A stretch of DNA of 64,000 nucleotides from assembly GCA_009760855.2 (NCBI GenBank), contig WPIO01000003.1, positions 4,417,501 to 4,481,500 of the forward strand, read 5' to 3'. Positions 2,636 through 64,000 of the stretch are shown in pieces. The notes beneath the pieces were generated by a model that did no database searches, was not told the origin of the DNA, and worked only from the letters and a program-made list of their open reading frames with translations. How positions within the stretch are numbered: the stretch's first letter is position 1; each line of letters starts with the position of its first letter. This DNA is from Cristatella mucedo. Taxonomy: Eukaryota; Bryozoa; Phylactolaemata; Cristatellidae. Position numbers and translations under genes: made by a program.

Positions 2636-2889
2636 ATGTAGTTTATCTCCGTCTGTAACTCCACAAAGCCACAAAGACTATTTGAGTGTAACGCAGGAGA
2701 GTTTTGTACAGCACACACACAGCCTAAGCGGCTTTTGGTACGCATTCGGTAGCCAACAGACTCCATCTCCCACAACAAAGAGAAAGTGATAAGCATAGCA
2801 GAGTCAGGAGAGCAGTTGAGGTAGTGAGTAGCATGGAAGTAGCAGCTCAGGACCGCTGGAAATGATGAACCATATTCGGCAACAGGAGA

Positions 2890-5680: not shown

Positions 5681-6024
5681 CCCCTGCAAATTAGAATCGG
5701 AGCTTAGTAATGGTCGCCGGTAAACGTTTCACAGCTTATTGAGGCACGGCAGGTGAGCTACTAACACAAAGAGTGCTATTCAGAGCTTTCAACTTACTAG
5801 TCGTGGGTTTGATAGCCGAGCTGTTGTTGGGGCGAACGCAGGGTGCAGGCAGGTTCTAACTGATCCGCCGAAGAACACGGCCGGCAGATATCGACTAATG
5901 GCGAGATCCCAGATTGTGATTACCAGGTACTGTTTTGTGCACGATATCCGAGGACAGCTCATAATCCGTCACAGCTGAGATAGCAGCAGAATATCCGAAG
6001 ATATAGCAGAGAAATCAGGTAAAG

Positions 6025-6964
6025 TTATTAGTTATGGGCAAACCCCGTGTGATTCAGAAATTGGAAAGGCTAACACTCAAGATTAGCTCTGCCAACGTAT
6101 CTCCTGTTGAATCAGCTCGAAATCTAGGTGTCATGTTCCAAAGTGACCTCTCGTTAGACGACCACATCAGCTGCACAATCAGGTCTGCCTACTATCAGCT
6201 ACAGAGCATTGCTAAAACTCGGGTTGTTTAGATAAGGATACAACGTCTAAGTTGGTCCAGGCATTTGTGACATCCCGTCTTTACTTCTGTAACTTACTGC
6301 TTGCTGGCCTACCAGCATGTGTTATCAGGCCCTTACAGCTGGTGCAAAACACTGCAGCTAGGCTTGCCTGTCGTGAGCTTTGGAGTTGCCACCTCACACC
6401 ACTTCTCGCCTACCTGCACTGGCTCCCAGTCAAGCAACGGATCGACTTCAAGGTTTTGTCGTTCACATTTAGGTCACTTCGTTCTTTGGCTCCAGCCTAC
6501 CTCTCAGATCTACTCCCCCACCAAGTCAAGAATCGTACCAACTGCTTTGCGGAATCCAACAGTTTAACTATACCTCGTATATACCTCAAATCCTTTGGAG
6601 ACCGTGCATTGAGTTCGTATGCTCACAAAGTCTGGAACTCACTCCCGAATTGCGTCAGAACATCCCCTGACTTGACCACATTAAAAAAATAACTTAGAAA
6701 CACACTTATTTAGGACAGCATTTAGTGGGTCCCTGTGATTCGTCCTTCATGTGCATATGCGTGCTGACACTGTTGCATGCTGCCGCTAACCAAACTTACA
6801 GGCTGACCTTGTGCATGTCATCCCTAACCATGCTGTTCATTTTGTTTATCAAGCCTGATATTGCTCACGATTCAATCGCGTTTCACTTTGCAGCAGATGT
6901 AAATCTCCCAGAAAGAGATTGAGTTCTCTGAGGGCGCTTTATCAAGTGCATTATTATTATTATT
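6025..6964 (+). mobile_element. LINE family A inserted in LINE B 5' UTR
   Basis: The element starts within the post-RT region (MGKPRVIQKLERL at 6034). It runs through a C-terminal reading frame (6252-6692, LHWLPVKQRIDFKVLSF) to the A 3' end and an (ATT)n tail at about 6951-6964. Flanking B sequence resumes exactly where it stopped, with AAG repeated at both junctions (6022-6024 and 6966-6968). It is 5'-truncated, as is typical of target-primed reverse transcription. The C-terminal frame is open for 146 codons, so this copy is younger than many others. Confidence 0.9.
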
Positions 6965-7084
6965 GAAGGTCCACACTACACTAGGAGTCGCCCGATGATG
7001 CTCTCTAGCTGGGTGAGGAATTTTGCATTACATTACACGAGTTTCCGACTTTAGTAGCCCATGAACATAAGGCACAGCTTGTTC

Positions 7085-9300: not shown

Positions 9301-10112
9301 ACCATGATGTTGGCAGAATGAGGTGATCGACTCAAATGACTCATTTTCTTGTTGAGAAAGGCGAGATATTAATTCAGTGCTATTTCCAACCTCTTTTTTA
9401 TAGCCTGTCATTTTTCTAATTAGCTGTGCAATAGTTACAAGGGTTATCACATGGCACATAGAGAGAACATCGCTGAACAAATTGCGACCCAAGAAAATAG
9501 ATAGTGTTAAAAACCCTTTCTTTTTAGCTCCCCATATAATTCTCCTTATGAAATATCAATCGCTATAGTCTCAAAATGCTTAAAATTGACTGCACTCAGG
9601 ACGATTGCCTTGACGTGATTTAGTTAAGAGTGCAAGAGTATTGCACGTCTTTCTAGTGTACTAATTTGGAACCTTAAAGCTGGATTTCTCTTGTGGGTCT
9701 TCTACTTAATGATTATGGTAATTGTTGAACTTTTTTAGAAGATAGGAATAATCGGAATACGGAATTCTTTCATAAGTATGTAATCTCTCTTTGCTTCGAG
9801 TAACAACCAGGCCCATACCGATCCTATAGAGCATAGTTGGTGGTTCCAAGTTCAGTCTCTTTGTCGCCGGAAACTAATGACATCAGCTCCGATACTGCCT
9901 AGAATACACTGAACACTTCCAGGACATCCGGCTGCTACTGTCTGACAATGATTTAACTAAGTGTAAACCACTTCAATGTAGAAGTAAACGGAAAGTTTGC
10001 TCGAAACTTAATTGTATGCGAGTGGTAACGAAGAACACCGGGAGCACACAACTGAGGCATATCGGACCGTAGAACGGTGCCTGATCTAACTCGAATTGAC
10101 GACCATAGCCGT

Positions 10113-10930: not shown

Positions 10931-11376
10931 GAAAACATTGCCAATGCTCTGACCTCACGAAAATGCATGACAAGATTCACCGAGAGCTTACTGAAGCTAG
11001 CTGCTTAATTATACATTTTGCAATTTTACTAGCCTAAATTCTAAAAAGGAGAGGTTACATGTTAATGAAGAATAGTGAGAGTGCACAATGTAAGAAAGCC
11101 TTGTCTGCGATCCGATTTAGGCAATCAAGTTCGACTGAGTTGAAAACTAAGTTAAGCAAGTAGCCCATAAGTGCAAAACAACTAGAAAACTCCAGCTTAT
11201 TCATTTTCTACCAAATTATTGCTTTTAGATCGTATATATATATATATATTACTACGCATTTACATAATTGCCTCATACTCTACCAGTCGAAAGTTATTGT
11301 CCGTGCCTAAGCATGTCCCATGTCCAGTAAACACATATTTGTGTCAGGATCGATTGCATACACAATAAAAATTTTT

Positions 11377-11462
11377 AATAACACACTTGATAAAGAGCCC
11401 TCAGAGAACTTAGTCTTCTTCTAGGTGCTTTAAATTTTCTGCAAAAGAAACACGATCAATAA
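11377..11462 (-). mobile_element. LINE A 3' end, shared by both duplication arms
   Basis: Only the last about 85 bases of family A are present (hairpin region, AGAGAACT block). The same fragment occupies the matching position in the other duplication arm (62282-62377, plus), so it was inserted before the duplication. Confidence 0.75.
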
Positions 11463-12318
11463 TACCATTCAGAGAGTCCATGTGGGGTATAGGTTAGATT
11501 ACCATAATCCGCACACGAGTTAGCATGTTTTTAAAAGCGTTCGCTCAACCTTTGTTAGGGTTACGATTACTGAAGGAATGTAAATACCAGAGCTTATCTC
11601 TAAAAGTTACGCAGACCCCAAAGAAATGCTGGCCAATTTTACTCGGCTGCTTTAATTTATGAACTTGGAATTTAGCTGTTATTAAAGTGGGAGACATGAA
11701 GTTACTTATTCGGTGGTAGATATGCTTCTCATAAGTTGTTTTTTCTTACAGTTTTCGGAAGCTTTCTTGCGACGACTGTTATTTTGAATTGTTAAGCGTA
11801 TTATTAAAATGGCTTGCTTCGTATGTTGGAACTCCTTAATCAAGATGCCTTTGTTTGTGGTTACACAGCTTTGTTGATTGTTTGAAGTAACGTTTGTCCA
11901 CTGACTCAGCAGGCACATTTACGCAGTAGTCTCATTTACGTAGATTACGTAGATACTCAGAAGAATCTTAGCGGCTGCTATCGCATAGCTTGGAAAGGAC
12001 AGTAACGGTTCGCCGTTTGTAAGACTTGAACTCGCAACATCATGAAGATCGTAAAGAGAGGACACTATGACTCGCGCCTAAGACCCACCGGAAGGGCATT
12101 GTTGTACTGGTCTGATCGTGCGACTTACGTGAAAGTTGGTACTGTTACTTGGGTTTTAGATTCGTAGGGGTTTCTTAATGATCTCTAATTGCTATTCCAC
12201 ACCACTTGGCTGGTAGTCATAATCTGGCTTTGAAAACTTAGCTAGCTCCTTTAGATTTTTGTCGAAACTCAGTCTCGCGACGAAAGCCTCAACTAGTTTT
12301 GTCCTATGTTAAAATCTT

Positions 12319-12346
12319 CCGGTGCCTTAAATTAAGAATAACAATG
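12319..12346 (+). repeat. 28-bp target site duplication, left copy
   Basis: This is identical to 12867-12894 (begins CCGGTGCC, ends AACAATG). The two copies flank a LINE A insertion exactly. The unoccupied site is present once in the inverted duplicate at about 61394-61420. Confidence 0.95.
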
Positions 12347-12866
12347 AGTTTTGTCGCTCACTTTTAGGTCTCTTCATTCTATGGCTCCAGCCTATCTTTC
12401 AGATATACTCCCCAATCAGGCCAAGCATCGTACCACTCGCTTTTCGGAATCCAACAGTCTGAAAATACCTCGTACAAACCTTAAATCCTTTGGAGACCCT
12501 GCATTTAGGTCGTATGCTCCCAAAGCCTGGAACTCCCTCCCGACCTGCGTCAGAACATCCCCTGACCTGACCACATTTATAAGAAACTTAAAAACACACC
12601 TATTTAGGACAGCATTTAGTGGGTCCCTGTGATTCGTCCTTGATGTGCTTATGCGTGCTGACACTGTGCATGCTGCCACTAACCACATTTGCATGCTGAC
12701 CCTGTGCATGTCACCCATAACCATATTATTCATTTTTTTTTTCAAGCATGATTTTACTTACTATTCTATTGCATATCACTTTGCAGCAAATGTAAAGCGC
12801 CTAGAAAGAGATTAAGTTCTCTGAGGGTGCTTTATCAAGTGCAATAATATTATTATTATTATTATT
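12347..12866 (+). mobile_element. Young LINE A insertion with perfect 28-bp TSD
   Basis: This is a 5'-truncated family A copy. It begins in the post-RT domain and encodes an open 93-residue frame (12351-12632, LRSLHSMAPAYLSDILPNQA). It continues through the 3' UTR and the 3' hairpin (12794-12833) to an (ATT)n tail. The perfect target duplication and the clean empty site in the other duplication arm make it one of the youngest insertions in the window. Confidence 0.95.
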
Positions 12867-12894
12867 CCGGTGCCTTAAATTAAGAATAACAATG
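12867..12894 (+). repeat. 28-bp target site duplication, right copy
   Basis: This is the second copy of the target duplication described at 12319-12346, lying directly after the (ATT)n tail. Confidence 0.95.
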
Positions 12895-20303: not shown

Positions 20304-20311
20304 TGTTAGTG
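20304..20311 (+). repeat. 8-bp hAT target duplication, left
   Basis: TGTTAGTG precedes the left terminal inverted repeat. The right-hand copy GGTTAGTG at 22613-22620 differs at one base. Eight bases is the standard hAT duplication length. Confidence 0.85.
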
Positions 20312-22612
20312 CAGACATGGGTAAAATATGGCCCGCAGACCATATACGGCCCGTTAGACTTTTTATTCCGGCCCGTCGAACTCTTCCACTTTATGTTACT
20401 AAATTAAATTTTATTCTAAAGACACCTCAATCATTTAACCTAGCTGTAATTTCCACATTTCCTAAGCAGATGGTACAACCCGAAGACATTGACCCTTGAG
20501 TGCAATGCATTACGGTTACTCTCTACTTCATTTTGTCGCTTTTTACTTTCAGCCCTTCAGTAAAATGAGCGAACCGAAGAAAAGAAAAGTAGACAGTGAG
20601 TGCTTAGTGTTCAAAGAGTGGACAACAAAATATTTTTTCACTGAAGTGAGATCAACAGCTTTACGTCTGATATGCTAAGAAACAGCTAGTTTTTAAAGAA
20701 GAATACAACATCAGCCGTCATCTTGCCACAACTACGCCACAACACTACACAACAACTACGCCAGTCAACAGTCCCCACAAGAACGGGCGGCTGCAGCTCA
20801 GAGATTGACGGCTAATCAGCAGAGTCAGCACAAACTTTTTTCAAAGACAAACTGCGATTCAAGAGTCAAGTACTGAGGCAATTTTTTACTGGGTTCGAAT
20901 TTGCAAAGGCCAGTAAGCCTTTCTCCGATGGCGAATTTTAAAAAGAATGCATGATTGAGACAGCAGATCTCTTTTGTCCGGAGAGCAAAGACAAATTTGA
21001 AAAATTAGTTTATCAAGCACAAATGTGACTCGCCGTGTGAAATTGATTGACGAAAATATAGCCAGCAAGTTAAACAAACAGGTGGAGTCGTTAAATTTTT
21101 ATTCACTAGCACTGGATGAAACTGACGACTTAAAAGACACTGGTCAGTGCTCCTAATTTTTATCTGATGGGTTAGCGACAGTTTTGAGATCACAGAGGAA
21201 TTATTGACCATGGAGTCAGTGAAAGAAAAAATGAAGGAAGAGGACTTATATAAACAGGTGTCTACTGTCATCGAGAAAAAGAGGCTAACTTGGAGTAAAC
21301 TTGCCAGCGTCACCACGGATGGATCACCAAATTTAACTGCGAAAAACGTCGAGGTGCTAAAAAGACTGCAGGAAGAAGTAAAAAACAAAAATTCTGATCA
21401 GGATGATATTTTCCTTCACTGCATCATTCATCAGGAAGTTATGTGTAGGTCTATAGTGCAGCTAAATCATGTCATGAATCCGGTCTTAAAACTTGTTAAC
21501 AATATATAAGCAAGGGGACTTCAGCATCGTCAGTTTATTGCTTCCCTGGAAAAAACCAATGCAACTAAACAGGACTTACTTTGACACTCTCGTGTGCGCC
21601 GGCTGAGTTTGCCCAAAGTCTTTCAATGTGGGAGCTGAAGGAGGGGATCGCTGCATTTTTGGAGTTAATGGGGAGATCCAACGAATTCGCCGAGATAAGT
21701 GACAAGAACTGGTTTTGTGACTTAGTGTTTGCTGTGGACATACTCTCGCGTGTGAGTGAGCTAAACACCAAGCTACAGGGAAAGATCAATTTTTGCACGA
21801 CATGTGCAAATGTTAGGGCCTTCAAATCCAAGCTTTTTTCTCCAGATACATTTCAAAAAAATCATTTACTCATTTCCCCACACTAGCTATGCAGAAAGAG
21901 GCGACCCGAAACGCCCAGAAATGCAGTAAATCACTAGACGACCTTCAAGAACAATTCTGCCGTCTTTTTTGTGACTTTAAAGAAATTGAAAAGTCACTAC
22001 AGCTGGTGTCTTTTCCCCTGTCACAAAACCCGGAAACAGCACCACAGAAGCTGCAGCTAGAACTGACAGATCTACAGCCTGACTTTGTATTGAAGGACAA
22101 GTTTAACTCTCTTAAACTGAACGAATTTTACGCTTCACTTAACGAAGCCACGTTACCAAAACTTCGGAGGATGGCACAAAAGATGCTGACGTTATTTGGC
22201 TCAACCTATGTGTGCGAACAGACATTCAGCGTTATGAACATCAACAAAGACTGTCACAAAATCAAGTTAACTGACCAACACCTCAGATCTATCTTGAGAA
22301 TTTCCACAACAACTTTAACACCAGACATTGACTAACTTGTAAAAAAAGGAGACCAACAAAACTGTTCTCGCTGAAACGGAACTGGAGTTTATTACTACAT
22401 TATTGAATAATTAAATTTGTAGTTTTTTTAGCAATAACCTAAGCACAATGTGTTTTTCTGCCTGTTAACGGCCAAATATTTTCATGTAGTGGTTTTTACA
22501 TTTAATTTATATTAGTTCACACAAGCACACCATTCTCCTATTCTGGCCCGGCCCCTCTGTCAAATTTTAGAAAACGTTGTGGCCCGCAAGTAAAAAAGTT
22601 GGCCCACCCCCG
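20312..22612 (+). mobile_element. hAT DNA transposon, GTF2IRD2/Charlie-like, defective
   Basis: This is a 2301-bp element. The left end begins CAGACATGGGTAAAATATGG and contains CGGCCCG motifs. The right end, read on the minus strand, begins CGGGGGTGGGCCAAC and contains GCGGGCCAC. Both fit the CAGGGGTGGGCAAAC...CGGCCCG terminal repeats of Charlie-type hAT elements, with mutations. It carries a decayed transposase and is flanked by an 8-bp target duplication inside a LINE A. Confidence 0.92.
20565..22335 (+). pseudogene. hAT transposase pseudogene
   Basis: The frame starts at 20565 with MSEPKKRKVDSE, which includes a PKKRKV nuclear localisation type motif. It breaks after about 38 codons. Further fragments follow in order: about 20870-21180 (damaged KPFSDGEF and ALDE-like core), 21204-21509 (WSKLASVTTDGSPNL and LHCIIHQE, the RNase H-like core) and 21581-21886 (WELKEGIAAFLE, LQGKINF). 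The intact-looking 21889-22335 encodes the C-terminal hAT dimerisation region (MLTLFGSTYVCEQTFSVMN) with its natural stop. Several frameshifts and a TAA at 21507 make it non-functional. The family resembles the transposase from which vertebrate GTF2IRD2 and ZBED/SCAND3 proteins derive. Confidence 0.9.
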
Positions 22613-24030
22613 GGTTAGTGGTAGGAGGCTCAATAAACCGCAAGAATAGTATCGTTAAAGGTAACATGCACAGGGTTGCCATGCAAGTACGTTAAGTGGC
22701 AAAGCAGGCTGTTAGCATGCATCAGCACCTATAGGAAGAATAACAGGGACCCACTAGATGTGAGTTTTTGTTTTCATTTAAATGTGGACAAGTCATTAAA
22801 TGCCGTGATGCAAGTCGGCAGTGTGTTCCAGACTTTGGGAGAGTACAAGCCATAGGCACGGTCTCCAAAGGATTTGAGATTTGTACAAGGTATAGGTAAA
22901 CATTTAGATTCGGAAAACAGGTATAGATGCTTATCCTCGCGAGGGAGTAGATCTCATAGGTAGGCTGAAGCCAGAGAATGAAAGGAGAAGTAAAGGTGGG
23001 TGTCACAAAAATACCTTGAAGTCGATGATTTGCTTGACTGGGAGCCATTGCGAGTTGATGAGAAGGTGTGACATGTTGGAACTGTGAGGCTGAGGACAGA
23101 CAAGACTACCTGCAGTGTTTTGCACCAGCTATAAGTTCGTGAGTGCACCAACCGGTAGATCAGCAAGTGTTGAGTTACAAAATTCAAAACTTGACGTCAC
23201 AAATGCATGGAACAATTTAGATGTGGTATCCCTGTCTGAAAATAACAAATTTAGCAGTGCTATATAATTGAAAGTAGGTAGAAATACCCGTGAAGCTGAC
23301 ATGGTCGTCTAATGAAAGGTCTGTTTAAATCATGGCACAGAGATTTCGTACAGATTAACCAGAAGAGTAGCCGACAGAGCCATCTTTGAGCTTTAGCCTT
23401 TTCAGTTTATGAATCACACTTTATTTACCCATATCAAGTAAGTTAATTCTATCATAATTCAACTTAAGGAAATTCGCAGCTATCCATGTGCGAATGTCAT
23501 TACTACATGCAGCTAGCGAGTCGAAAGAATTCGACGTGATGGTAGGCTGTTTAGGATAAAAGCAAATGTGCTAATGAGTGTCATCTGCATTAGAGTAAAA
23601 GCCTAGATCGTGCCCAATAATCACATCGTCAGGAGGCAGAGTATAAACCTTAAAAAAGGGGACCAAGCACAGATCACTGAGGCACAAACAATTTCAGTGG
23701 CTCCTCGGATGACCTTCATCCATTCATATCAGTACTATAGAGTCTTCCACTGAGTTAGGACCTGAAGCATTGCAGTGCAGTGCCAGTGCCAGTGCCAGTG
23801 TGGCCCAGGCGAGATTAAAGGAGCTCAAGAAGGGCTTTGTGATCGATAGTGTAGAAAGCTTCCGAAAGATCGATCAAAACAAGCAGAGATACTCTACTGA
23901 AGTCTGCAGTTCTATGAAGGTCGTTATACCCCAGAAGCAATGCTGACTCTGTGGAGTATTAGTGGAGCGATAAGCTATACAACCAGACTGCCACTGCCAA
24001 GCATGATGGAAAATGAATGATGGACAACCT

Positions 24031-28566
<4,536 letters not shown>

Positions 28567-28972
28567 TAGCAAGAGCTAGAGCTAGAGCAAGAGCTAGAGC
28601 AAGAGCAAGAGCAAGAGCAAGAGCTAGAGCAAGAGCAAGAGCAAGAGCAAGAGCAAGAGCTAGAGCAAGAGCTAGAGCAAGAGCTAGAGCTAGAGCAAGA
28701 GCTAGAGCAAGAGCTAGAGCAAGAGCAAGAGCAAGAGCAAGAGCAAGAGCAAGAGCAAGAGCTAGAGCAAGAGCAAGAGCTAGAGCAAGAGCAAGAGCAA
28801 GAGCAAGAGCTAGAGCAAGAGCTAGAGCAAGAGCAAGAGCTAGAGCAAGAGCTAGAGCAAGAGCAAGAGCAAGAGCAAGAGCTAGAGCAAGAGCAAGGCA
28901 AGAGCAAGAGCAAGAGCTAGAGAAAGAGCAAGAGCAAGAGCTAGAGCAAGAGCTAGAGCAAGAGCAAGAGCT
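28567..28972. repeat. Hexanucleotide array of GAGCAA and GAGCTA
   Basis: About 67 tandem six-base units come in just two variants, GAGCAA and GAGCTA, in an irregular order. GAGCTA never occurs more than twice in a row. There is a one-base-short unit near 28896 and a GAGAAA variant near 28922. The minus strand gives long Ala-Leu and Ser/Cys repeat frames, but nothing supports their translation. Confidence 0.98.
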
Positions 28973-31900
28973 ATACAAACATTTGTCATGGGTCGAGGCA
29001 AGCCAGATTAAATTGGCACCGCGAGAAGTCTCAAAAGTTTCAAAGGGAAACACGGGAATTTAGACCTGTCACCGGAACTAGAGTACGGCCAGATCATGAA
29101 ATATTAAAGCTATTATGAACTAGCCGACACCAAGAATCGCACGCTAGATGCATGGCTGTCGAGACTTGTTAGCCTTCTACCAGCTTGTTTTAATGGATTA
29201 GATCTCATCATCAGCCCCTCTCCACCAACCTGTCAAGAATCACAAAAAACTTTAAGGGCTCAGAAGAAAATGATATTGCGTCTAAGCAGTTAAACAGGTG
29301 TTTGAGCATTAGGCAAGTCCTTAAGTATTTGGATCAGCTCGGTTCACAGATTCTGGATTGAGAAACAAGCTACCGCAAGATTCGCTGTATATTTTTCCCG
29401 TCTAAGGATGGACTTGAAAGAGTTTAGCTAATTTCGCTAAAGTTGTAAGTGTATTTAAGCTGCACGACTTTGAGACACGTTAAGGATTGCTAGGGAAATT
29501 GATGAGTCAGAGAGTAATTTCGGTGCATGCCTCTCTAGGCTCGCTGCACGATCGGTACTTACCAAGAGGGATCCACAGGTCACTGTTACGGCTTTAACAG
29601 GTGGTAACTTAAAAGGAGCGAGTTGCTTTTAATATGTCATTTGTATAACACCCTAAGAGAGCCCAATCTCTATCCAGATGCTCTATTGTCGTCGCCGGGC
29701 TCGAGGGCTGACGACATTGACATTGATTGTTAGTAGCGAGCATCTTACCACAGCTCGTCCTCTGACAAAGACCAAGCGTGGCCCTGTGTGTGCAGGCTAT
29801 TTTTCTCTGTAGATTGCTGCTGTACCACGTTGCCTAAAGCTTCAGTGATTCCTGACATATAGGCCAGCGCCATTGCAAGCTTTGCATAAGATTTTCTACA
29901 GTGGTCTGGCACAACTGAAGAATTATTATACTCAGCAAAGGGAAGCAAATTTCAAAGAGCAGCTGCATTTTTGATAGTTTTAAGCGATTTGATATCACAA
30001 AACGCTGGCTATGCCAGTTAATCGCTAATCGAATGGCTTGGTGGGAAGATATAATCACTTCATAGCGAAGTTTGTGCTCTTGCTTATTAACTGGTATTTT
30101 TCGAGGGATTAATCCTCAACAGTAGCTAAAGTAGTTATTATTTTTCACAGGCTGTGGTTTTCACTTTAACGGCCATGGCAGTGATAATGATGAAATTCTC
30201 CAATTTTTATGAAATATTAAGAACTTGAAATTGAATACATTTTAATTAGATTCTGACTGGAAAAAGCATGGGAAACAGAATACCATGTAACTAACCCCAA
30301 ACGCTCAGCTCAGGAGGCCTACCATGCCGGTTGCCCAGTGGCATTGCTATCTGCCCGATTCGATTCGATGAGCGTCTAGGAGGAATAAGCAGGTCGCCTC
30401 ACCTAGAGCACTTACTGCTCAAGCCTACTTTCAATTACGAAGGGATTGTGAGTTCGTGACTTGAACTCGACCGAGGTACTCATACAAAAATAGGGAATTT
30501 TACTGAACGTTTTTCGCAAGCCCACAACACAGCTGCACATCTAGTTCAGTTTTATTGCCAAGCTCCTCGTGATTCGTCGCCTATACACATGACCATCAAT
30601 CTTAAACGTACGCTATAAACCTAAAACCAAGGTATAGGCATTCCAAAGCGATTATCTGCGATAGGACCGAGCAGTGAGAAATCTAAAACTCACCAGCGTG
30701 ATAATACGTAACACAGCTATATCTGTAATGAAGCTATGCGAAAACGATCTCAAAATATTAAGATGTGTTTAGGTTTTCGAGATTTACTGCCAATCTAAGA
30801 ACCAGCTGCCATATTGTGAGTCCCAAAATGCAGCCATTTTACTGACGTCAACAGCTACGTTTGAAGTAAAATAAATCCTGTTGAAAGTGCTGGCGCTGCT
30901 CCTCTGAGTAAGTGCTCACATTGTCCTTATAACAATCAAGATGATCATTGAGAATAAGGACATGCACTTTATCCGGCTGAGAAGTAGTTCTGCTGCATGA
31001 TTTCAAGCCGCTCAACGCTTTCAGTCACTAAACAGTAAGCCCCGAATTACTGCCGCAATGATGGACGCTCTTGTCTTTCTTATCTTAGCCCCAACAAGAC
31101 ACCGGGCTTGACCTATACCTCAAGCACCCTTTAGGGATCAAGTTTTATAAGATTCTCCAAAACTGCCACTGCTTATTTCGAGACCTGAAAAAAATATTTC
31201 TTGGTAACCAAAATTTGCTGTGCAGTGCTTGTATCAGCAACTTGCTAGAGTTCACCAGTGGATTCCACTTGACATAGTTGCCAACCCAGAGAACTCGGTC
31301 TGTTGGGGCCAATCTAGGTACCAGCATTGAAGAAGATGGTTTCTTCGGTCCAACAGGCACATATAGTAAGTAAATCAAACGGGATATAACTAGTGTGGAG
31401 TTTCATAAGGAGTACCATCACTTCTTTCCAGTCTCCTTTGAGCTCTCGCCAGAACCTATCAAACCTAAAAGTGTGACTTTAGCAATACCTTGATGCTGTT
31501 TTAGTCCTCAAAGATATGAAGCAACAAGTTAAGGAAAGCAAGAAACAGGCAATCTAGAGAAGCTTAAATGGAGTAGCTCACAACACCTTTCTGTGAACGT
31601 TGGCAGCGAGCATAGCTAAAGGCATTGGGATGATGATTGCAGCCTTTGCTGCATATGGAGAAAAACATGCAAGTATCAACATAGGCAGCTGGAACTAAAC
31701 TTTATTAACATGCTATGGTGGAGCTAACAAGAACTATTAAGCTTAAAGGTCTTGTAGTTTTACTATTTAAATTACTGGAAAGTACTAGTTGGAAAGTGTT
31801 ATTATTTCGATATATTAATCCACTTAACTACTGATGCTGAGCCTATACTTCTTGGAGTGATCCACAATACTGGTTGATATATCTAGTACAAAACCGCTGT

Positions 31901-32030
31901 GATTTGAATACAAAATACAGCTTTATTAAACATAAATTCAGAATATAAGCATTGAAAAATATAAATTTATTGCACAACTTTGAGAATTTTGTCAATTAAC
32001 ACGAATTCTCTCACGTCTTTTGCTGCATAT
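28973..32030. other. AT-rich non-coding stretch with LINE A remnant
   Basis: A degraded family A 3' end (-) lies at about 29632-29690. Frames at 29745-30058 (-) and 31145-31378 (-) are unsupported. I see no recognisable gene. Confidence 0.35.
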
Positions 32031-32702
32031 AAAGGTGACGTCCACACATGGATGGCAGCTAATTTTCTTAATTTGAATGATGATGAAACTATTTAACTAG
32101 TCATGGGCAAACGAAGTGTGATTCAGAAGTTGGAAAGGCTAACGCACAAGATCGGCTCTGCCAGCATATCTCCTTAGGAATCCACACGAAATCTAGGTGA
32201 CATGCTCCAAATAATAATAATAATAATGCACTTGATAAAACGCCCTCAGAGAACTCAATCTCTTTCTAGGCGCTTTACATTTGCTGCATGGGGAAATGCA
32301 ATTGAATGGTGAGTAAAATCATGCTTGATAAACAACATAAATAACATGGTTATGGGTGACGTGCACATGGTCAGCATGCAAATGTGGTTAGTGGCAGCAT
32401 GCACAGTGTCAACACGCATAAGCACATGAAGGACGAATCACAGGGACCCACTAAATGCTGTCCTAAATAGGTGTGTTTAATTTCCTTTTAAATGTGGTCA
32501 GGTCAAGGTATGTTCTGACGAAAGTCGGGAGGGAGTTCCAGGCTTTGGGAGCATACGAACTAAATGCATGGTCTCCAAAGGATTTGAGGTTTGTACGAGG
32601 TATTTGTAGGCTGTTGGATTCCGAAAAGCAGATGGTACGATGCTTGGCCTGGTGGGGGAGTAGATCTGAGAGATAAGTTAGAGTCAAAGAATAAAGGGAC
32701 CT

Positions 32703-35700
32703 AATGTATCTCCGTCAGTAACTCCACAAAGTCATAAAGACCATGTGGGCGTTACGCAGGAGAGTTTTGTATAGCACACCCACAGCCTAAGCGGCTTTCG
32801 GTACGCATTTGGTAGCCAACAGACTTCGTCTCACGCAACAAAGAGAAAGTGGGAAGCATAGCAGAGTTAGGAGAGCAGTTGAGGTAGTGAGTAGCATAGA
32901 AGTAGCAGTTCAGGACCGCTGAAAAAGATGTGCCATAGTCGGCAGTTGGAGAGTAGATGTCGTTGCCTAAGAATTGTGGAAGCGAGTTCCACAGTCTAGG
33001 ACCTGCAGAGCTAAAGCTTCTGTCGCCAACTGTCTTTAAGCGGAGGAATGGGACAGCTAATTTATTGTTCACACAGGACCTGAGGGCGCGAACAGGCTGA
33101 AACTGATGCAGCAGTTCAGCTAGGTATGAAGGAGCCAAGCCGTGGCGGGCCTTGTGGGTCAGCGTAAGAACTTTGCTCCGTATCCTTTGCTCAACCGGCA
33201 ACCATCCTAGTTCTTCCAGCAAAGGTGACGCGTGCTCAAACTGCTGGGACTTGAAGACCAGCCTTGCAGCCATATTCATAGTCCGCTGCAGTGGCATAAT
33301 AGCTTTCTTTGGTAGCCCAGCCGAAAAGAATTACAATAATCAAGCCGAGACAGAACTAAAGAGCTAGTTAAATTTTTTACAAGCCTCTATGGGAGACAGC
33401 TTCTAATCTTGGATAGGGATCGGATGTGATGGCTGGCTGTAGAGGCAGTCTTCTGAATGAAGCTTTTGAAATTGAGGCAGCTGTCGAACACGACACCTAG
33501 ATTACGAGCACGTGGTGAAGGTCGCACAATAGCATCGCCTATTAGAACAGCAAAGCCTTTTAGTCCAGCCATACGCTTAGGGTGTCCTATGAGAAGCAGT
33601 TCGGTTTTATCGTCATTTAATTTCAGGAAGTTTTCCGACATCCAGGATCGAATATCGGCAAGGCAAGCATTCAGTTTCTCAGTTGCTGCAGCAGATTCCG
33701 ACGGTTTAAATGACAAATACAACTGAGTATCATCAGCATAGAAGTGATATCCTATTCCATGGGCCTTAATCACTTTTCCCAGAGGTTGCATATAAATGGA
33801 GAACAGCAAGGGACCAAGTACTGACCCTTGAGGGACTCCACAGGTGACCCTTCACATGTTTGAGACCTGACCCCCACACGACACGGATTGAACGCGATCA
33901 GACAAGTACGATTTAAACCACGCCAGTGCTTCGTCTGCCAGACCGATCGTTGTTCTCAATCTTTCAAGCAGAACTTCGTGATCAATGGTGTCGAAGGCAG
34001 CAGTCAGATCTAGCAGAGCTAGGGCAGTGACATTCCCGTCGTCGTTGCCACGTAGAATGTCATTGTTAGCACGGAGGAGAGCAGTTTCGGTAGAGTGCTG
34101 CCTCTTGAAACCTGATTGAAATGTTTCTGACATTCTATTATTTTCAATATGTTCAACTAGCTGCTTAGCAACAATTTTTTCAAGAATCTTTGATAAGAAT
34201 GGAAGAAGGGAAACTGGGCGATAGTTTGCTAGGACCTCTGTGTCTAATCCAGGCTTTTTAAGAATAGGTCTAACGATTGCCGATTTGAATGACTTGGGGA
34301 AGATCCCTTTTCCCAAAGAAGCATTAAAAATCTTGGTTATGGCAGGGCTAAGTTGGTCTGCAAGTGAAGACCACAGAGATGAAGGTATAGGGTCTTCAGG
34401 AGACGAGCTCTTTTTGCTAGACCTTATTAAGGCAGCCACATCACAGGCAGAAACATCAGAGAATCTTTTAAGAAAGGTCACAGGTTGAGGAACGGCGATT
34501 GCTTTGGTCGGAGGGGGCTTAATGGAGGCACGAATGTGCACAATTTTTTCAGTAAAGAAGGCTGAAAACTTTTCGGCTGAGCCCTTAATATCTGGGGAGT
34601 CAGACCTGACAGCATTGGCCAGTAAATGGTTTACTGTCTTATAAATCTGTTTAGTGTCCGACTGGCAGGAATTCAGTTTTCTAATGAAAAAAGAAGCCCT
34701 GGCTTTTGTAAGCTTTCGTGTGTAAACACGAAGGAAGTCTTTAAAATTGACTAGGTCTGCCTCAGACCCCGATTTCTTGAAACGACGTTCCAGCCTGCGC
34801 TTAACACGGCGCGTCTTAAGGGATTTTTTTTGTAATTGAAAGCAATCTCGACGACTTTGAACACGGATAGAGCGAACGGGAGCATGCTTGTCAAGAGCAC
34901 TCCTGAGTGTCATGTTCATCGCATCTGTGAGGGTATCGAGGCTGCCGGTCGAGTCTGAATGCAGATCAAGAAGGCCTGCATCACAAACAGATTTCAAAAA
35001 CTTGTCCATGTCAATGCTTTGTAAGTTAAGTCGTTTGGCAAATTCGACATTGCCCTGCACGTACGAGGGAGCAGGAACAGTAAACGAGACCGAACAATGA
35101 TCTGAGAGGGTCAGTGGGCACACCACAAAGTCAGTGGGGAGGACATCCTTAGTGATCACGAGATCTAGAATGTGGCCACCGACGTGGGTGCTATGATTAA
35201 CGTGTTGGGCCAAACCACGATTCTCCAGACAGTCAAGAAATGAGCGGACCTGGCCGTTGCTAGGGTTGTCAACGTGAATATTGAAGTCTCCTACAATCAG
35301 TAGCGGCCTGTCACACACAAATATTTTAGCGAGGAACTCTGAAAACTCCTCTATAAACAAGTTTAGACAGCCAGAAGGAGGCCGGTATATCACAACGGTG
35401 AGAGGCATTGTCTTTGATGAAGACCTGATAGCAACCGATTCAAACGATGACCCATGCGAGAAACTGCACATTTTATAGCCAAACAATTCGCGAACAACAA
35501 TTGCAACCCCGCCACCAAACTTGTCAGAACGCATGGACTGATAGAATGAGAACCCGGGTGGGGTGGTCTGGGAAATACAGCTACTGGAACAAGGCGTCAT
35601 CCAGGTTTCGGTAAGCAGAAATGCATCTAGCTTCTCCTTGGCCACCTGATCGCGGATAAGTAACCCCTTGGTTTTTAGCAAGCGGACATTTAGTAGGCGG

Positions 35701-36182
35701 AATTTAAGAGGCTGTCCAACAACTGGGCGACGGCGATGAAGTGGCTCGTATTCTCTACCGTTTTCGTCCGGCCCGGCGGACACTGGCTCTTCGAATTTGA
35801 ATTGGACTTTGGTAACGGCCGTGGAACGACGTTTCACAACGTGCTGGGCTACAGCAGGTGGGCTACTACCGCAACAAGTACTACTTAGCGCTTTAAACTT
35901 ACGAGTCGTAGGTTTGATTGCCGAGCTGTTGATGGGGCGAACGCAGGATGCAGGTAGATTCTCACTGACCCGCCGGAGAAGGCCCGCCGGTAGGTATCGA
36001 CTAATGGCAACATTGCATCTTATGCTAAGCAGGTCCTGTTTTGTGTAGCATATCCGAGGACAGCTCATAAATAGTCACAGCGCAGATAGCAGCGGAATAC
36101 CCAAAGGTATTACGGAGAAATCAAGTAAAGGTCCACACCATGCTAGGAGTCGCCTGAGGCCGCTCTTTAGCGCGGGGAGGAA
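32703..36182 (-). mobile_element. Inner LINE B, full length and nearly intact
   Basis: This is a 3.48-kb element on the minus strand: 5' UTR 36182-36069, one long ORF region 36068-32752, and a short 3' UTR with a reduced tail (AATGTATCTCC at the left end). Its 5' end (TTCCTCCCCGCGC on the minus strand) matches those of the copies ending at 7020 and starting at 42930, so it is full length. It lies inside a minus-strand LINE A. Confidence 0.93.
32752..36068 (-). pseudogene. LINE B endonuclease-reverse transcriptase, two stops and a frameshift
   Basis: A 738-codon frame (36068-33852) carries an N-terminal spacer and then an AP-endonuclease domain. The domain has LLTETW with catalytic Glu, GGGVAIVV, YRPP, VGDFNIHVD, HILDLVIT and TLSDHCSVSF with the catalytic His. 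The RT domain follows with YRPVSLL, ETFQSGF and motif A LALLDLTAAFDTIDH. A TGA at 33852 replaces an Arg codon seen as AGA in the 42930 copy. The same frame continues through [10 protein letters not shown] and the YADD catalytic motif to a TAG at 33387. A one-base shift before about 33300 leads to the C-terminal domain (33297-32752, GWLPVEQRIRSKVL). All active-site motifs are present, so decay is recent and limited. No separate ORF1 is seen. Confidence 0.9.
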
Positions 36183-36481
36183 GTGAGCGACAAAATCTTG
36201 AAGTCAATCCGTTGCTTGACTGGTAGCCAGTGCAGGTCGGCGAGAAGTGGTTTGATGTGGCAACTGTGACGCTCACGACGGACAAGCCTAGCTGCAGAGT
36301 TTTGAGCCAGCTGCAATCACCTGATTGCACATGCCGGTTGGCCAGTAAGCAGTGAGTTGCAGAAGTCGAGACGGAATGGCACGAATGCATGGACCAACTT
36401 GGACGTGGTATCCTTATCTAAACAAGCCCGAATTTTAGATATGTTATGCAGCTGAAAGTAGGCAGATTTGACTGTGGAGCT

Positions 36482-36527
36482 GATGTGGTGGTCTAACGAG
36501 AGATCACTCTCGTTAGATGACCACATC
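36482..36527. repeat. Fold-back hairpin inside LINE A
   Basis: Arms 36482-36502 and 36507-36527 pair at 19 of 21 positions around a 4-base loop. In other A copies (for example 6140-6180) the second arm is absent, so a reversed copy of the neighbouring sequence has been inserted here. Confidence 0.9.
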
Positions 36528-38059
36528 GTGGAACATGTCACCTAGATTTCGAGCTGATTCAACGGGAGATATGCCAGCAGAGCCAATTTTGAGCGTCAGC
36601 CTTTCCAATTTCTGAATCGCACTGGGTTTGCCCATAACTAGTAAGTTAGTTTCATTATCCTTTAGTTTTAGAAAATTTGCTGCCATCCATGTGCGGATGT
36701 CATCAATACATGCAGCAAGTGAGTTGAGAGAGTTTGTGGTGCTCGAAGGCTGCTGGGAGGGTTCAAAGCAAAGGTGTGTTAAACAACCGTATGTCAAAAC
36801 AACCGTGTGTCATCCGCATAGAAGTGAAGGCCTAGATTCTGCTTGGAAATCACATCAGCAAGAGGGAGAGTATAAAACGTTAAACGAACCGGACCTAGCA
36901 CGGAGCCCTGTACCCCATATTTCAGAGGTACCTCGGACGATCTTTGTCCATTCGCGTCAATACTCTGGAGTCTCCCACTGAGATAGGACCTGAACCATTG
37001 CAGAGCAGTGCCAGGGATGCCCAGGCGAGATGGGAAGCGCTCGAGAAGAACTTTGTGATCAAAGTGACCGTTCTTTAGACGACCAAATCAGCTCCATATT
37101 CAAGTGTGACTACTTCCTGCTACATCTCATTGCTAACATTTTGGTTATTTAGTTAGGGATACCACATCTAATTTGGTCCGAGCATTTGTGACATCCCGTC
37201 TTGACTTCTGTAACTCAGTGTACCCTGGCCTATCGGCATGTGCAATCAGGCTTACAGCTGGTGCAAAACTCTGCAGATAGGCTCTTCTTTCGTCATTCTC
37301 ACTCTTGCCATATCATATCGCTTCTCACCGACATTCACTGGCTACCAGTCAAGCAACGGATTGACTTCAACGTTTTGCTGCTGCTCACTTCAAGGTCCCT
37401 TCATTCTTTTGCTCCAGCCTACCGTTTAGATCTATTGCCCCACCAGGCCAGGCATCATATGAACTGCTTTTCGGAAACTAACTGTTTAGCTATGGCTCCT
37501 ACAAACCTCACGTCCTTTGGAGACTGTGCATTTAGTTCGTATGCTCTTAAAGCCTGAAACTCACAACCAACTTCAGTCATGACATCCCTGTGACATGACC
37601 ACATTTAAAAAAGAAATTAAAAACGGACATATTTACGACAGCATTGAGTAGGTCTCTTTGGTTCGTCTTTCGTGTGCTTACGTGCTGAAACAGTGCTTGG
37701 TGCCACTAACCACACGTGCATGCTGACCCTAGGCATGTCACCCCTAACCATGTTATCCATATTGTTTATCCTGGATGATATCACTCACCATTCGATCGTG
37801 TTTCTTAGACAGCTAATTTAAGACTCCTACAAAGAGATTAGTTCTCTAAGGGCGCTTTATCAAGTGAATTACTTTTTTAAATTAAATTTTGCCAAAACGG
37901 TTAATAATTTCCATTTTGGAATTGAAAAGTGATACTGAAAAGCTAAAAAACTTTGATCGGTTGATTAGCTGATAGTAAGGAGAGATTGATTAAAATTTAC
38001 AGGGTTTTAAGTGGTTCTACCTGGGCGTACCTGGTTCTAACTTGCACACTTAATTCTGA

Positions 38060-38290
38060 ATTGATTTAGGAGAGGCAACTTCGGTTATTAGTAGCTATTT
38101 TGATTATAATTCGATTATAAGAAGAGCCAGTGATAGCCTTTAAAGTGTTTACCTGAGATATGCAAGGGAGACTAGTTAGCTGGTTTGAATCGTCATATAA
38201 ATTTAGAACGTTTGCTGTGTTACACGTGCGGATGTCATCAACACATGCAGCCTTCGAGTTGATTAAATTGAACATGGTGGAGGACTGAAG
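38060..38290 (-). mobile_element. LINE A fragment (post-RT region)
   Basis: A minus-strand frame (I-N-S-K-A-A-C-V-D-D-I-R-T) matches the A segment that follows the YADD region. It lies head-to-head with the plus-strand A that starts next to it. Confidence 0.65.
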
Positions 38291-39260
38291 GGATAGAAGT
38301 GAAGTTAGAAAGTTCCCTCAGGGCTCTGTGCCTTGTGTGATTGCTTTCACGGCTTTGCACTCTCTCTTTCCGTTACGATTGCCTGGCATAACTAGGCTTT
38401 CTCTGCTGTGCAGATGACACTCAGTTGAACCTTTGCTCTGATCCCTCACAGCAATCCAGCAAATTCTCTCAAATGTATTTGCTGCATTTATCACACATAT
38501 GTCCGCACGTAGATGACAGAATTTTTTTAAATTGAATGATGATAAAGTAATAATGACATCCGTATGTTGATGGCTGCAAATGTTCTGAAGTTGAACGATG
38601 TTAAAAATAACGAAGCAGTTTTGGGAAAACTAAATGGAATTCAGAAATTGCAGAAACCTAACGCTTAAAATTGGCTCTGTCAGTATATCTCCACTCGAGT
38701 ATTTACCAACTCTAGCTGTCCTGTTTCAAAGTGGATGACCAAACTAGCTTTGCAGTCAAGTCTGCCTAATTTCGGCAACATAGCATTGCTTCAACTCGGG
38801 GTTGCTTAGACCGGGATACTACATATAAACTGGTCCATGAATTTGTAAGATTCCGTCTCGTCGTTAGTCACTGCTTGTTGGTTTAATGGAGTGTGCAATC
38901 AGGTGCTTACAGATGGTGCAAAACTCAGCAGCTAGCCTTGTCAATCGTGAGTGTAGCAGCTACCACATCACATCCCGTCTCGCCGACCCACATTAGCTAC
39001 CAGTCAAGCAGTGCGTCGACATAAATATGGCTCAAGCCTTCCTTTTAGATCTATTCCCCACAATGCTGACAATATTACCGCATGCTTTTCTGAATCGCAT
39101 CGTATACCTACATCTCGCATTGACCTCAAATCATTTGGAGACCGTAACAATAGCTTTTAGGCTCCTACAGCCTGGAAATCACTCTAACTGGCATCACGAC
39201 ATCCTATTGCTTGAGGACTTTTCAAAAAGCTCAATCTCATCTACTTAACACTGCATCTTG
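38291..39260 (+). mobile_element. Decayed LINE A copy
   Basis: It begins at a damaged VPQGSV block (about 38310). A-like sequence runs on through about 38560-38720 (R-M-L-M-A-A-N, then I-Q-K-L-Q-K and I-S-P) to the C-terminal domain near 39030-39200. Numerous stops and indels are present. The 3' hairpin and tail are not recognisable. Confidence 0.65.
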
Positions 39261-41013
39261 TGGGTTAATTCAGTTAAACTTTGTTTCGTTGAATTTAATT
39301 CTACGCTAGCACAGTCTTTTACAGATTACTATAGCAAAATGCAGAACGACTATGAATTTTTTAAAACCTTGGCTAAAAGTATGCCACTCGGTAATGCACG
39401 AGTTTAACTTGGTATATTTAAAATAAATTGAGCTTGAATAGACAGTTGAGCGTAAGTAAGTAGCGTGCCCCATGGGACCTTTTAATGACTACGATTATAT
39501 CTGAGGTATTATATATGGCTATTTGAAAGCACATCCAATGCCATGGTGATCTAATTATTTCTCCGAATTCGCTATATTTTCGCATATTCGAGTGAATGCA
39601 TGAATATAGTGCTAATTTTTATCTATTGACGTAATTTTAAGAATGTTTGAACTGAAGTGAGTGATTACAGGGAAGCTAGTATGACCAAGTTAGTGGGAGT
39701 TCGCATGTAACGAGAGTAAATTGCTACGAAAAAAGTAGATGAACTGACGCTGTTTCATCAACTTGATGGTCAAGAAGCCAGATGCTTGCCTCCATATTGG
39801 TCCAGATATAGCTCCTTATGGTACTAAAGTAATGGGTAGGAACACTCAGCTAACAGATCGTATGTTGTTCCATTGAAATGGCTAGGATCGAATCTCCATC
39901 GCTTACACGTGATCAAAAGACCCGGAGCTTGATGGTTTTCTAGAGAACCAGAGTCCTGCTGCTGGCAATTGTTTCCTGCTGGAGAAATATGGGTTGTTAA
40001 CAAAAGTACTATTGTGGCACTGGCTACGTAAATGAGACTGCTAAATTAGACCACCTTTACTAAATTACTATCAGCTTTTTCTTATTTCCAGTGAACGTTG
40101 TTAGAGTGTAACTTGCTTAGCAGTCTCGGCACGATCAACTGAGTTTTAGTTAGTCAAACTTCCTAACAGAACCAGTGCCATCACTTGCCTTCTTGTGTGC
40201 CTGAGCACTCAGGAATATGCACGGCACTTGTTTTCAAATGCATGGGTGGCTAGCCTTGACATTGTGCATGCGATTAAGTCGCGGATGCTGATTCCCTGGC
40301 ATTGATTTAAAATGGGCATGGATGGATCTCTGATTCTTCCTGGGTGCTAGGGAAACGACTTATTCTGAATATTCTAGATTATATGCACAAATTTAAGGAG
40401 AATGAATATGATCTTGGCTGTATAGGAAAGGTATCTATGGCTTCAAGCTTGCGAGTAGCCCACTTTATTCAACGTCGCTAGGCAAGAAATATTGGTATTC
40501 AGTATATTTACAAACATTATCAAGATGCATTCTCATTTGCGATTTGCTATTCTCATTAGGAGAAGAGACTGGGGTTTTGAAATGCAAATTCAGTAGATAC
40601 TACTGACTAAATGGAAATAAAAATGAATGAGCTTGCAACGGGAAAAATTAATTAGAAGATCATAGAAAACTTGGCGAACTAGGGAACTCACCCAAAACAT
40701 CCATGAACAGCTGAGTAGCTACTGTAAGTTTTGATTAACGGTTGACTTACGAGTGAGCTGCTGTAACATGTAAGTTCTCATTTTACAAAGGCCACGTCAG
40801 GTAGAAAATAAAATTTCTGCGAAAGTGCAATGGTTTAAAACACAAAATAAAACGAAAAGTCATCCTATTAGGCCGTCTCATTGCTATAGCAGAGGAGCAG
40901 CCTTAGAGTCTACCACTCCTACTTGCCGATAGTAATGTAGGATTGCCTGCAGCAGGGCTCAAAATTTACTTCACAGACCTTGAAATGCAATCACACTACA
41001 GGGAGGCCAAGAC
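39261..41013. other. AT-rich non-coding stretch
   Basis: I see nothing recognisable here. Confidence 0.35.
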
Positions 41014-60479: not shown

Positions 60480-61210
60480 TGTGCCCAGTTTGTTACTGGT
60501 TGGATGCTTGCTGGATGGCCATTCCGTGACTTTCCCATCGTTATCGACAACGTCGTCTTCCCATCAGACATTTCAGAGCCGTGGTTCTTTATCAAAAAAT
60601 CAGCATCAAGAATTAATACCGACTAACGCATCCAAAAAAGTTCCTTAACGACATTCAATCAAGATTCTTCAAAGGGATCAAAGCGATAGATGGCTACGGT
60701 CATCAATATAGTTAGATCAGGCACAGTTCTTCAGTCTGACTTGTCTCAGTTGTATGCTTCTGGTATTTTCTAATACAACTCATGGACACTGATCTTTCTG
60801 GCAAATTTTCCGTTTACTTCCTCATTAAAGTGTTTCACAATGGTAGCTAGATCATTGTCAGAGAGTAACAGCCAAAAGTCCTAGAAGTGTTCAGGGTATT
60901 TTAGGCATATCAGAGTTGGTGTGATTAGTTATAGATAACAAGAAGACCAAACTTAGAACCACCAACTAGGCTCTATAGGATAAGTCAGGTCCTGGTTTTC
61001 ACTCGAATACAAGAGATATTGTGTACTTATTGATGAGTTATCTATTCTGCCAATTTTGTATCTTTAAAACAGAGGTACAAGAGTTACCGTCATCATTAAG
61101 TTGAAGAGATACAAGAAAAGTTCTGCTGTGACGTTCCATAGTAATATGCTAGTAAAATGTGCAACACTCTTGCACTCTTAACTAAATCATTAGAAGCAAT
61201 CTTCATGAGA
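60480..61210 (+). pseudogene. Third partial copy of family 2 tail and 3' flank
   Basis: The frame from about 60513 (D-G-H-S-V-T-F-P-S-L-S) matches the serine-rich tail of the 63066-63624 copy. It is broken by loss of one base at about 60630, giving a premature TAA. The 3' flank (60690-61210) matches 63640-64000 in direct orientation. The membrane segment is absent. It is a direct partial duplicate lying just upstream of the right arm. Confidence 0.75.
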
Positions 61211-62281
61211 GCAGTATATTTTAAGCATTCTAAGACTATACTGATTGATCTTTTATATGGAGATATTTGTTTGGGGCTAGAAATAATTTTCTTTTAGTAA
61301 TACCTGTACTCTTGGGTAGCAATTTTTCGTGATAGAATGCTTATTGAAAGGCAAATTATAAAGTAGCTTCTCCGGAGTTGTAACCCATATCAATCATTAT
61401 TCTTAATTTAAGGCACCGGACAATTTTAGCATACGACAAAATGAGTACGCTGTTGTCGTTAGACTTAATGAGCAAAGATTGTCAGAGGATCTAGCTAAGC
61501 TTTTAAAAGCCAGATCAAGATTACTACACAAGCGATGCAGGCGAGCAATTAGAGATCATTAAGAAGCCCCTACGAATCTATAACCAAATTCCAGGACCTA
61601 GTTGCATGTAAGTCACATGATCACACCCCTAGAACAATGATCTTCCGGCGGGTCTTAATAAGAAGTCACGGTTTTTTCTCTTCACAATTTTCATGATGTT
61701 GCGAGTTCAAGTCTTACCTTAGGCTTGCCGTTATTTCCTTTTCTAAGGTAAGCTTTAGTAGCTTCTATGATTCTTCTGCTGCTACGTCGATGTGGTTGTT
61801 GAGTCATCCAAAAAACATTACTTCAAAACTATTAACAAAGTTGTACTACCATTTAAATGTCGTTTCAATAAAAGAGTCTCAGCACACGAAGCAAACCATC
61901 TTAATAATATGCTTAAAAATTCAAACTAACAGTCTAGGCAAGGAAATCAAGAATGATCCTTAACAACCGTTAGCAAAAACAAATTATGAGAAAAATATCT
62001 ATCGCCGAATAAAAAACTTCGTTTCTCAGACTTTCTCTATCCATCCTAACAACCTGTGAAATTTCAAGTTCATATATTTAAGCAGCCGAGTAACATCGGC
62101 CAGCATTGCTTGCGGTCTGTGCAATTGTTAGAGCTAAGCTCGGGCATTTCTATTGATTCAATGATCTTAACCCTAGAAACTGTTGAATGGAAGCTTTTAA
62201 GAAGTATACTAACTTATTTGCTGATTAGGGTAGTCTATGCTGAAACCCAGAGAGACTCTATGGATTTTATTGTGGATCGTG

Positions 62282-62377
62282 TTTCCTTAGCAGCAAATGT
62301 GAAGTGCCTAGAAAAGTATTACGTTCTCTGATGGCGTTTTATAAAGTGGATTGATATTAATATTATTATTATTAGTA
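62282..62377 (+). mobile_element. LINE A 3' end, pre-duplication insertion
   Basis: This is the terminal family A fragment with an (ATT)n-type tail. It is at the same relative position as 11377-11462 in the inverted arm. Confidence 0.8.
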
Positions 62378-63065
62378 TGTATTCAATCTTTCCTGACCAA
62401 GATATATGTTTAAGGGACATGGACATGCTTGTGCGTCGACAATAACTTTTCGCTGGTATTACTTGACACAATTACGTATTTTCATATCAAAATATATATG
62501 CGATCTAAAAGGAATAATTGAATATAAATATAATACTCTGGATATTACTAGTTTAATATTTTGCAATTACAAGCTACTTGCGTAATTTAGCTTTCCACTC
62601 AGTTGAACTTGATTGCCTAAATCTGATAGTATGCAAATGTTTCTTGCATTGTGCATATTCAGTATTCTTCATTGACTTCTGACCTCTCCTGTTTAGAATT
62701 AAGGTTAGAAAAATAGTAAAATTCAGAATGTAGCAGCTAGCTCGAGTATTCTCTCGGTGAATTTGTCTATGCATTTTCTTGAGGTCAGAGCATTGGCCTT
62801 GCTTTCTTTCCAGTCTGCTCTGCAGATCTTATTCCAGTCACAGTGACGTGACCAAAGCTTTCAGGCTCTGCTGGAATAATGGCTTTTTGTGTAGCAGCGA
62901 AGCATCTAGTTAAAATCAATTCACTTTATTCAGGTTTATGCCCAGCCTATTAAAGTCGCCAATTCTCAGAGGCATTTAATACATGATACATGCTATTGTG
63001 CAACACCATTGCAATCTCCAGAACCTAACGTGGATTGCATGACATGAAGCTTCAAATTGCCAAAG

Positions 63066-63624
63066 AACGTGGCATGCCGTTTGCATTGCAAGCATTCACC
63101 GAGTGTGTGCCAGTTCTTGCAGTTATACAATTTCTAACGTGACCAGTAAATATGCTCTGCATGATACAATATCGTATGTCAACCTAAACTTTCAGGTGTC
63201 TGTTATTTGTTTCAACTTAAGCAATCGCTTAAAAAATTATTCAATACTTGTTCTAAGAAATTGTAATCTTTCAGATTCATATATCCGTCACTTACTGGCT
63301 CCGCTCGCTGGTAGATTAGGAATCTTGGTGCTCTGCCTGACTTTCTGTGCTTACATTAGTTGTGAAACCAAAAGGGAAACCGTAAGCGCTTCTGGAAGAA
63401 CAGAAAGCATCACTAGAATCCGGCGTAAAAGTGAAGGTTTGAGAAGCGATGGCCATTCCGTGACTTTGCCATCGTTATCGATAACGTCGTCTTCCCACCA
63501 TACATTGGAGAGTCATGGTTCTTTATCAGAAAATCCTCATCAAGAATTAATTCCCACCAACGCATCAAAAAATAGTTCCATGACGACATTCAATCAGGAT
63601 TCTGGAAAGGGATCAAAGCGATAG
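63066..63624 (+). CDS. Family 2 single-pass membrane protein, last exon
   Basis: The frame is open from 63043; a plausible acceptor (CCAAAG) ends at 63065. The N-terminal part is cysteine-containing (T-W-H-A-V-C-I, A-S-S-C-S-Y-T-I-S-N-V) and would be extracellular. Then comes a hydrophobic helix (LLAPLAGRLGILVLCLTFCA, about 63290-63350), a basic stop-transfer C-E-T-K-R, and a tail of about 85 residues rich in Ser and Thr with R-R-K-S and S-E-N-P-H-Q-E-L motifs. The stop is at 63622-63624. The whole frame matches the left copy apart from one 2-base indel there, and the tail matches the third copy, so constraint on the protein is likely. Upstream exons are not defined. The family is unknown. 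Confidence 0.5.
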
Positions 63625-64000
63625 ACGACTATGGTCATTAATCGAGTTAGACCAGGCACAGTTCGTCAGTCTGACATGTCTAAGTTGTATGCTCCTGGTA
63701 TTTTCTAATACAACTCGTGGACACCGGTGTTTTGGCAAACTTTCCGTTTACTTCCTCATTAAAGTGTTTTACAATGGTAGATGAATGGTACAAGAAGAAT
63801 AGACTTAGAACCACCAACTAGGCTCTAAATAATAAGTCTGGTCCTGGTTTTCACTCGAATACAAGAGAGATTGTGTCGTTAATAATGAATTCTATGTTCT
63901 GCCAATTTTTTATCTTTAAAAAAGAGTTACAAGAATTACCGTCATCATTAAGTCAAAGAGCCACAAGACAAATTCTGCTTTGACGTTCCATAGTAGTATG

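Follow-up and report, generated by a model that had tools for sequence, protein, structure and literature searches.

The window that we analyzed, 64,000 nt of contig WPIO01000003.1 (positions 4,417,501 to 4,481,500) from the bryozoan Cristatella mucedo, contains a stretch from about 32000 to 37871 in which pieces of two repeat families, A and B, follow one another on both strands. This arrangement raises the question of whether a B element lies inside an A copy that itself lies inside another A copy and, if so, whether such a nest can date the two families, as an earlier note on this DNA had proposed. Comparison of the window with itself placed A and B copies at several sites (referred to below by number), and we aligned the four A pieces of the putative nest one by one to other A copies, including the uninterrupted copy A6. 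From the look of their proteins, both families may be LINEs of the L2/CR1-like sort; with such non-LTR elements, B shares the endonuclease and reverse transcriptase, A the 5′ truncation and both the short-repeat 3′ tails, with no difference in kind.

The innermost element, B1, occupies 32703 to 36182 on the (−) strand and is near-complete rather than complete, as the earlier note had it. B1, B2 and B3 have a common 5′ start, and the ACATT tail at the 3′ end, present as one unit in B1, is repeated as (ACATT)n in B3 and B4; the ends of B are thus defined by further copies and do not depend on the nest alone. A (−) strand open frame of 740 codons (33852 to 36074) encodes an APE-type endonuclease together with the beginning of a reverse transcriptase (PF03372, 6.6e-9; PF14529, 4e-7; PF00078, 3.6e-14), while the second part of the latter lies in a separate (−) strand frame (33387 to 33851) that contains FYADD and matches positions 116 to 194 of the 205 in PF00078 (1.2e-16). 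A C-terminal open frame on the same strand (32752 to 33330) has similar counterparts in B2, B3 and B4 and less similar ones in A copies, and gave no Pfam match at 0.01. The eight PDB sequence matches of B1 at 0.01 include human LINE-1 ORF2 chains (2e-14) and R2 (0.0014). With its reverse transcriptase, upstream APE-type endonuclease, short-repeat tail and absence of long terminal repeats (no direct repeat of at least 300 bases bounds it in the window self-comparison), B is a non-LTR (LINE) element. A scan for relatives of the 740-codon frame, made with six patterns from one protein that distant relatives would escape and in collections where a eukaryotic source is not expected, yielded no confirmed relative: 34 of the pattern matches lay in contigs of bacteria and archaea, and one in viral contigs. 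Rfam at gathering thresholds gave no matches in the window.

Family A likewise displays non-LTR traits, namely 5′ truncation, a fixed 3′ end with a short-repeat tail and variable target duplications. Specifically, A1, A6, A12 and the inner A copy of the nest all end in (ATT)n at the 3′ side; the 5′ ends differ among A6, A12 and the inner and outer A copies; and the duplications measure 4 bases where inner A entered outer A, 3 bases (AAG) where A6 entered B2, and 28–30 bases where A12 entered another repeat, C. The reverse transcriptase frames of B1 match A copies by tblastn (e.g., 36776–36531 at 7.8e-18), and this match at the protein level indicates that A and B are related. The sole A frame scanned with Pfam (6216–6692) had no match at 0.01.

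The outer A copy consists of a 5′-truncated 5′ piece (32000 to 32211) and a 3′ piece (37060 to 37871), both on the (+) strand, so that the nest begins near 32000, ~30 bases to the left of the start at 32031 given earlier. Bases 32000–32209 align without gaps to inner A 36738–36529 (80.5% identity). Against A22, the two halves of outer A are similar in identity (72.1% and 70.7%), in favor of a single split copy; against A6, they are unequal, with 83.3% over 114 bases for 32098–32211 (A6 6029–6142) and 78.0% over 820 bases for the 3′ piece (A6 6139–6953), which counts against their being one copy. The 3′ tail of outer A is decayed. Placed on A6, the left piece extends to position 6142 (window 32211), and the right piece already begins at 6139 (window 37060); the two overlap by 4 bases, CAAA, present at 32208–32211 and again at 37060–37063, where the 3′ piece opens. 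We read this overlap as a target-site duplication. The break and resumption of plus-strand A reported at 32210 and 37060 are thus real, except that the left piece extends to 32211 and the sequence resumes with an overlap, not at the next base. Beside outer A, at 38171–39265, lie older A fragments: a minus-strand fragment comes first, and the plus-strand pieces after it include a stretch that is partly repeated.

Inside outer A lies a minus-strand, 5′-truncated A copy that spans 32212–37059 as a whole, with the B element within it. Its 5′ piece (36183 to 37059) is truncated within the reverse transcriptase region, and its 3′ piece (32212 to 32702) ends in an (ATT)n tail, the first bases of which are common to the CAAA duplication of the outer copy. 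The 5′ piece matches A6 (36647–36183 against 6022–6466, 82.2%) and A22 (37060–36192, 68.4%), while the 3′ piece matches A12 (32704–32210, 89.9%), A6 (32704–32213, 86.1%) and A22 (70.7%); the two inner halves, too, are thus about equally close to A22. At the inner join, the 5′ piece reaches A6 6466 (window 36183), and A6 6469 (window 32704) is the first position of the 3′ piece, 2 bases apart; against outer A, the pieces are 1 base apart (37391 and 37393); and against A12 and A1, neither of which is broken where B sits, the join is flush, as the earlier note described for a minus-strand A interrupted by B between 32702 and 36183. The sequence of A12 and A1 at this site, GCTCACTTTTAGGTC, is explained by GCTCACTT before B plus TTAGGTC after B. 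Around B1, we found no clear target duplication at the inner join, none being distinguishable from shared T bases.

The flanks of each insert were then joined in silico, solely as an empty-site test, and single alignments were run against A6. The alignment crossed the join in both cases, with 930 columns, 13 gap positions and 78.6% identity for outer A and 963 columns, 28 gap positions and 83.8% identity for inner A; a single private insertion of the inner copy accounts for 19 of the 28 gap positions, and another 4 fall at the join itself. The A sequence duplicated or lost at either join amounts to 4 bases at most, short of the few tens of bases that the earlier note had set as the limit for its excision and alignment test. 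Its triple nest of B in A in A is accordingly real, with uninterrupted copies aligning across both joins, although the repair that it called exact comes with the 4-base overlap at the outer join and, against A6, a distance of 2 bases at the inner one. By a rough hand estimate in which a piece may start anywhere on the ~940 positions of A6, ends would meet within 4 bases in ~1% of cases and within 2 bases in ~0.5%. A chance test based on pairs of A profile hits in the window (88 in all, 10 of them within 25 bases) was dropped and provides no evidence either way, because the three profiles had been cut at the joins under test and their edges meet by construction.

The observed joins, tails, truncations and domains lead us to consider it highly probable that this locus arose by successive insertions, outer A, then inner A, then B1, by two LINE-type families active over overlapping periods; the enzymology and any absolute times are inferred. 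In the first step, an old plus-strand A would have served as the target of the 5′-truncated minus-strand A, leaving the 4-base target duplication; in the second, a near-full-length B would have entered inner A at a T run that matches the end of its own ACATT tail. The anatomy suggests that the elements moved by target-primed reverse transcription, with an endonuclease and a reverse transcriptase of their own. This mechanism is to be expected since B encodes both domains, and it would account for the short repeats at the 3′ ends, for the 5′-truncated A copies and for target duplications that are short and differ in length.

Could the same order of pieces have come from rearrangement, by inversion or recombination between the opposed A copies, or from misassembly? 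The nested copies do form an inverted repeat with arms of ~330 bases (36180–36508 and 37063–37391) between which recombination is possible, and the private 19-base insertion of the inner copy sits exactly at the family position at which outer A is broken. However, on the family axis, the two flanks of either insert come within 4 bases of each other, the (ATT)n tail of inner A ends exactly at the break, the 4-base duplication flanks inner A, and B is bounded by its own ends as known from other B copies; an inversion would not give the joins, the tail, the duplication and the B ends together, and we regard such an origin as extremely unlikely. A sequence preference of B for A, or of A for B, which would make the nests non-random, is very unlikely in our judgment. 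In its favor, one B-in-A and one A-in-B nest occur within 64 kb, and the ACATT tail unit of B1 overlaps the TT of the target, with ACATTT at the homologous position of A6. Against such targeting, the 3′ flanks of the A copies have no obvious common motif by eye (TTTGGAGC, AAGGTCC, CCGGTGCC and TTAGATTT), and the sequence that follows B4 and B3 is unlike A; moreover, both families are abundant in the window, and a preference cannot be tested on just two nests between families.

The private 19-base insertion of inner A lies at 36511–36529, on the loop side of one arm tip of the inverted repeat, and yields a near-perfect 21-base hairpin (36482–36502 with 36507–36527, a 90% inverted repeat). A6 and A22 lack the insertion at the same place, where A39 shows a gap of 30 bases and A49b gives no clean alignment. 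Its coincidence within 4 bases with the break position of outer A has a chance of ~1% by a rough post hoc hand estimate. Conceivably, the nest enabled a hairpin to form at the arm tip and copying to snap back there, with the insertion as the scar, but we think this unlikely. The outer right arm is disfavored as the template, with 5 mismatches to the 21-base arm, compared with 2 for the inner copy's own arm and 1 for A6.

Next, we asked what the nest says about time. The join coordinates support the order of outer A, inner A and B1 for the three insertions, in agreement with the earlier note, and outer A is clearly the oldest by sequence divergence as well as by nesting. Specifically, private divergence in the 3′ part of A was 0.17–0.22 for outer A (four three-copy comparisons) and 0.041–0.075 for inner A (six three-copy comparisons); in the A tree, support reached only 0.38–0.87. 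Private branches such as these, and those of B1 given next, also count the time during which a lineage was active and give no clean ages. For B1, private divergence was 0.010–0.015 over the last 390 bases when measured with its closest relative, B4, and 0.054 (0.045–0.065) when measured with B2 and B3, the latter not being separable from that of inner A. Since the comparison with B4 supports the order and that with B2 and B3 does not resolve it, divergence alone fails to order inner A and B1, and it is the nesting that gives their order. The private changes of B1 by codon position (28, 16 and 47) display a third-position excess (p = 0.0003), whereas those of B2 (83, 86 and 106; p = 0.18) and B3 (35, 49 and 46; p = 0.29) have no significant bias, so part of the 0.054 branch of B1 is probably older than its insertion.

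The same window also contains the reverse nest, an A copy within a B element. The host, B2, has its main piece at 2637 to 6024 and its 5′ end beyond the insert at 6966 to 7021, both on the (−) strand, and A6 lies between them on the (+) strand (6025 to 6965), with its 3′ (ATT)n tail at the join. When A6 is left out, the alignment of B2 crosses the join and reaches B1 36182 and B3 42929. AAG stands on both sides of A6, at 6022–6024 and at the opening of the piece beyond it, i.e., as a 3-base duplication. The private divergence of A6 (~0.08–0.10) is smaller than that of its host B2 (~0.17), as nesting predicts. As A-in-B and B-in-A nests both occur within 64 kb, the activity periods of A and B overlap instead of succeeding one another, and the relative clock for both families that the earlier note drew from the triple nest is not supported. 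With both directions present and only a handful of nests, neither family can be dated or called the older.

Nested LINEs and the use of nests as a relative clock are already established, and the nesting described here is ordinary. Zepp, a green-algal LINE, nests within itself in dense clusters; the present copies resemble it in that LINE copies are inserted in one another and differ in that unrelated sequence separates their scattered nests and that nesting occurs between families. The TinT (transpositions in transpositions) method orders the activity of retroposon families from element-in-element insertions (Churakov et al. 2010, PMC3014933). The method needs genome-wide counts of nested pairs, uses same-family nests for tuning only, and asks for minima of 18–20 bases, host pieces in one orientation and an overlap of up to 35 bases (PMC3014933). 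By those rules on size, orientation and overlap, the present nests qualify, with overlaps of 4 bases (outer) and 0 bases (inner); the genome-wide counts of that method contrast with one B-in-A, one A-in-B and one A-in-A nest here. What the triple nest offers is a clean, checkable case of layered LINE insertions with a firm order of three events at one place, and the reverse nest warns against reading any one nest as a family clock.

Two further insertions involve A copies in the window. On the A6 coordinate, A22 breaks off at 6856 (window 22626), and a tail piece of A follows from 6864 (window 20309). The stretch in between contains a hAT dimerisation domain (PF05699, 3.8e-6; 21817–22335) and, at 20304–22620, is probably a hAT-like transposon inside A22; it is flanked by an 8-base near-duplication with 1 mismatch and has weak terminal inverted repeats (6 of 14 positions mismatched). 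A12, in turn, lies in repeat C between the two copies of a perfect 28–30 base duplication (12317–12346 and 12865–12894), and a copy of repeat C near 61333–61532 is uninterrupted at the A12 site. Within repeat C, 60514–60846 and 63448–63780 are direct repeats (88%), and the copy at 9479–12341 matches 60514–63780 with the order permuted, the pattern expected of a ~2.9-kb unit that is tandem or circular. A fragment resembling the A 3′ end occurs inside repeat C at 11355–11457 and 62275–62369. Elsewhere, 28556–29063 is a long simple repeat with stop-free frames that would translate as poly(Ala-Leu) from one strand and as poly(Ala-Arg) from the opposite one.
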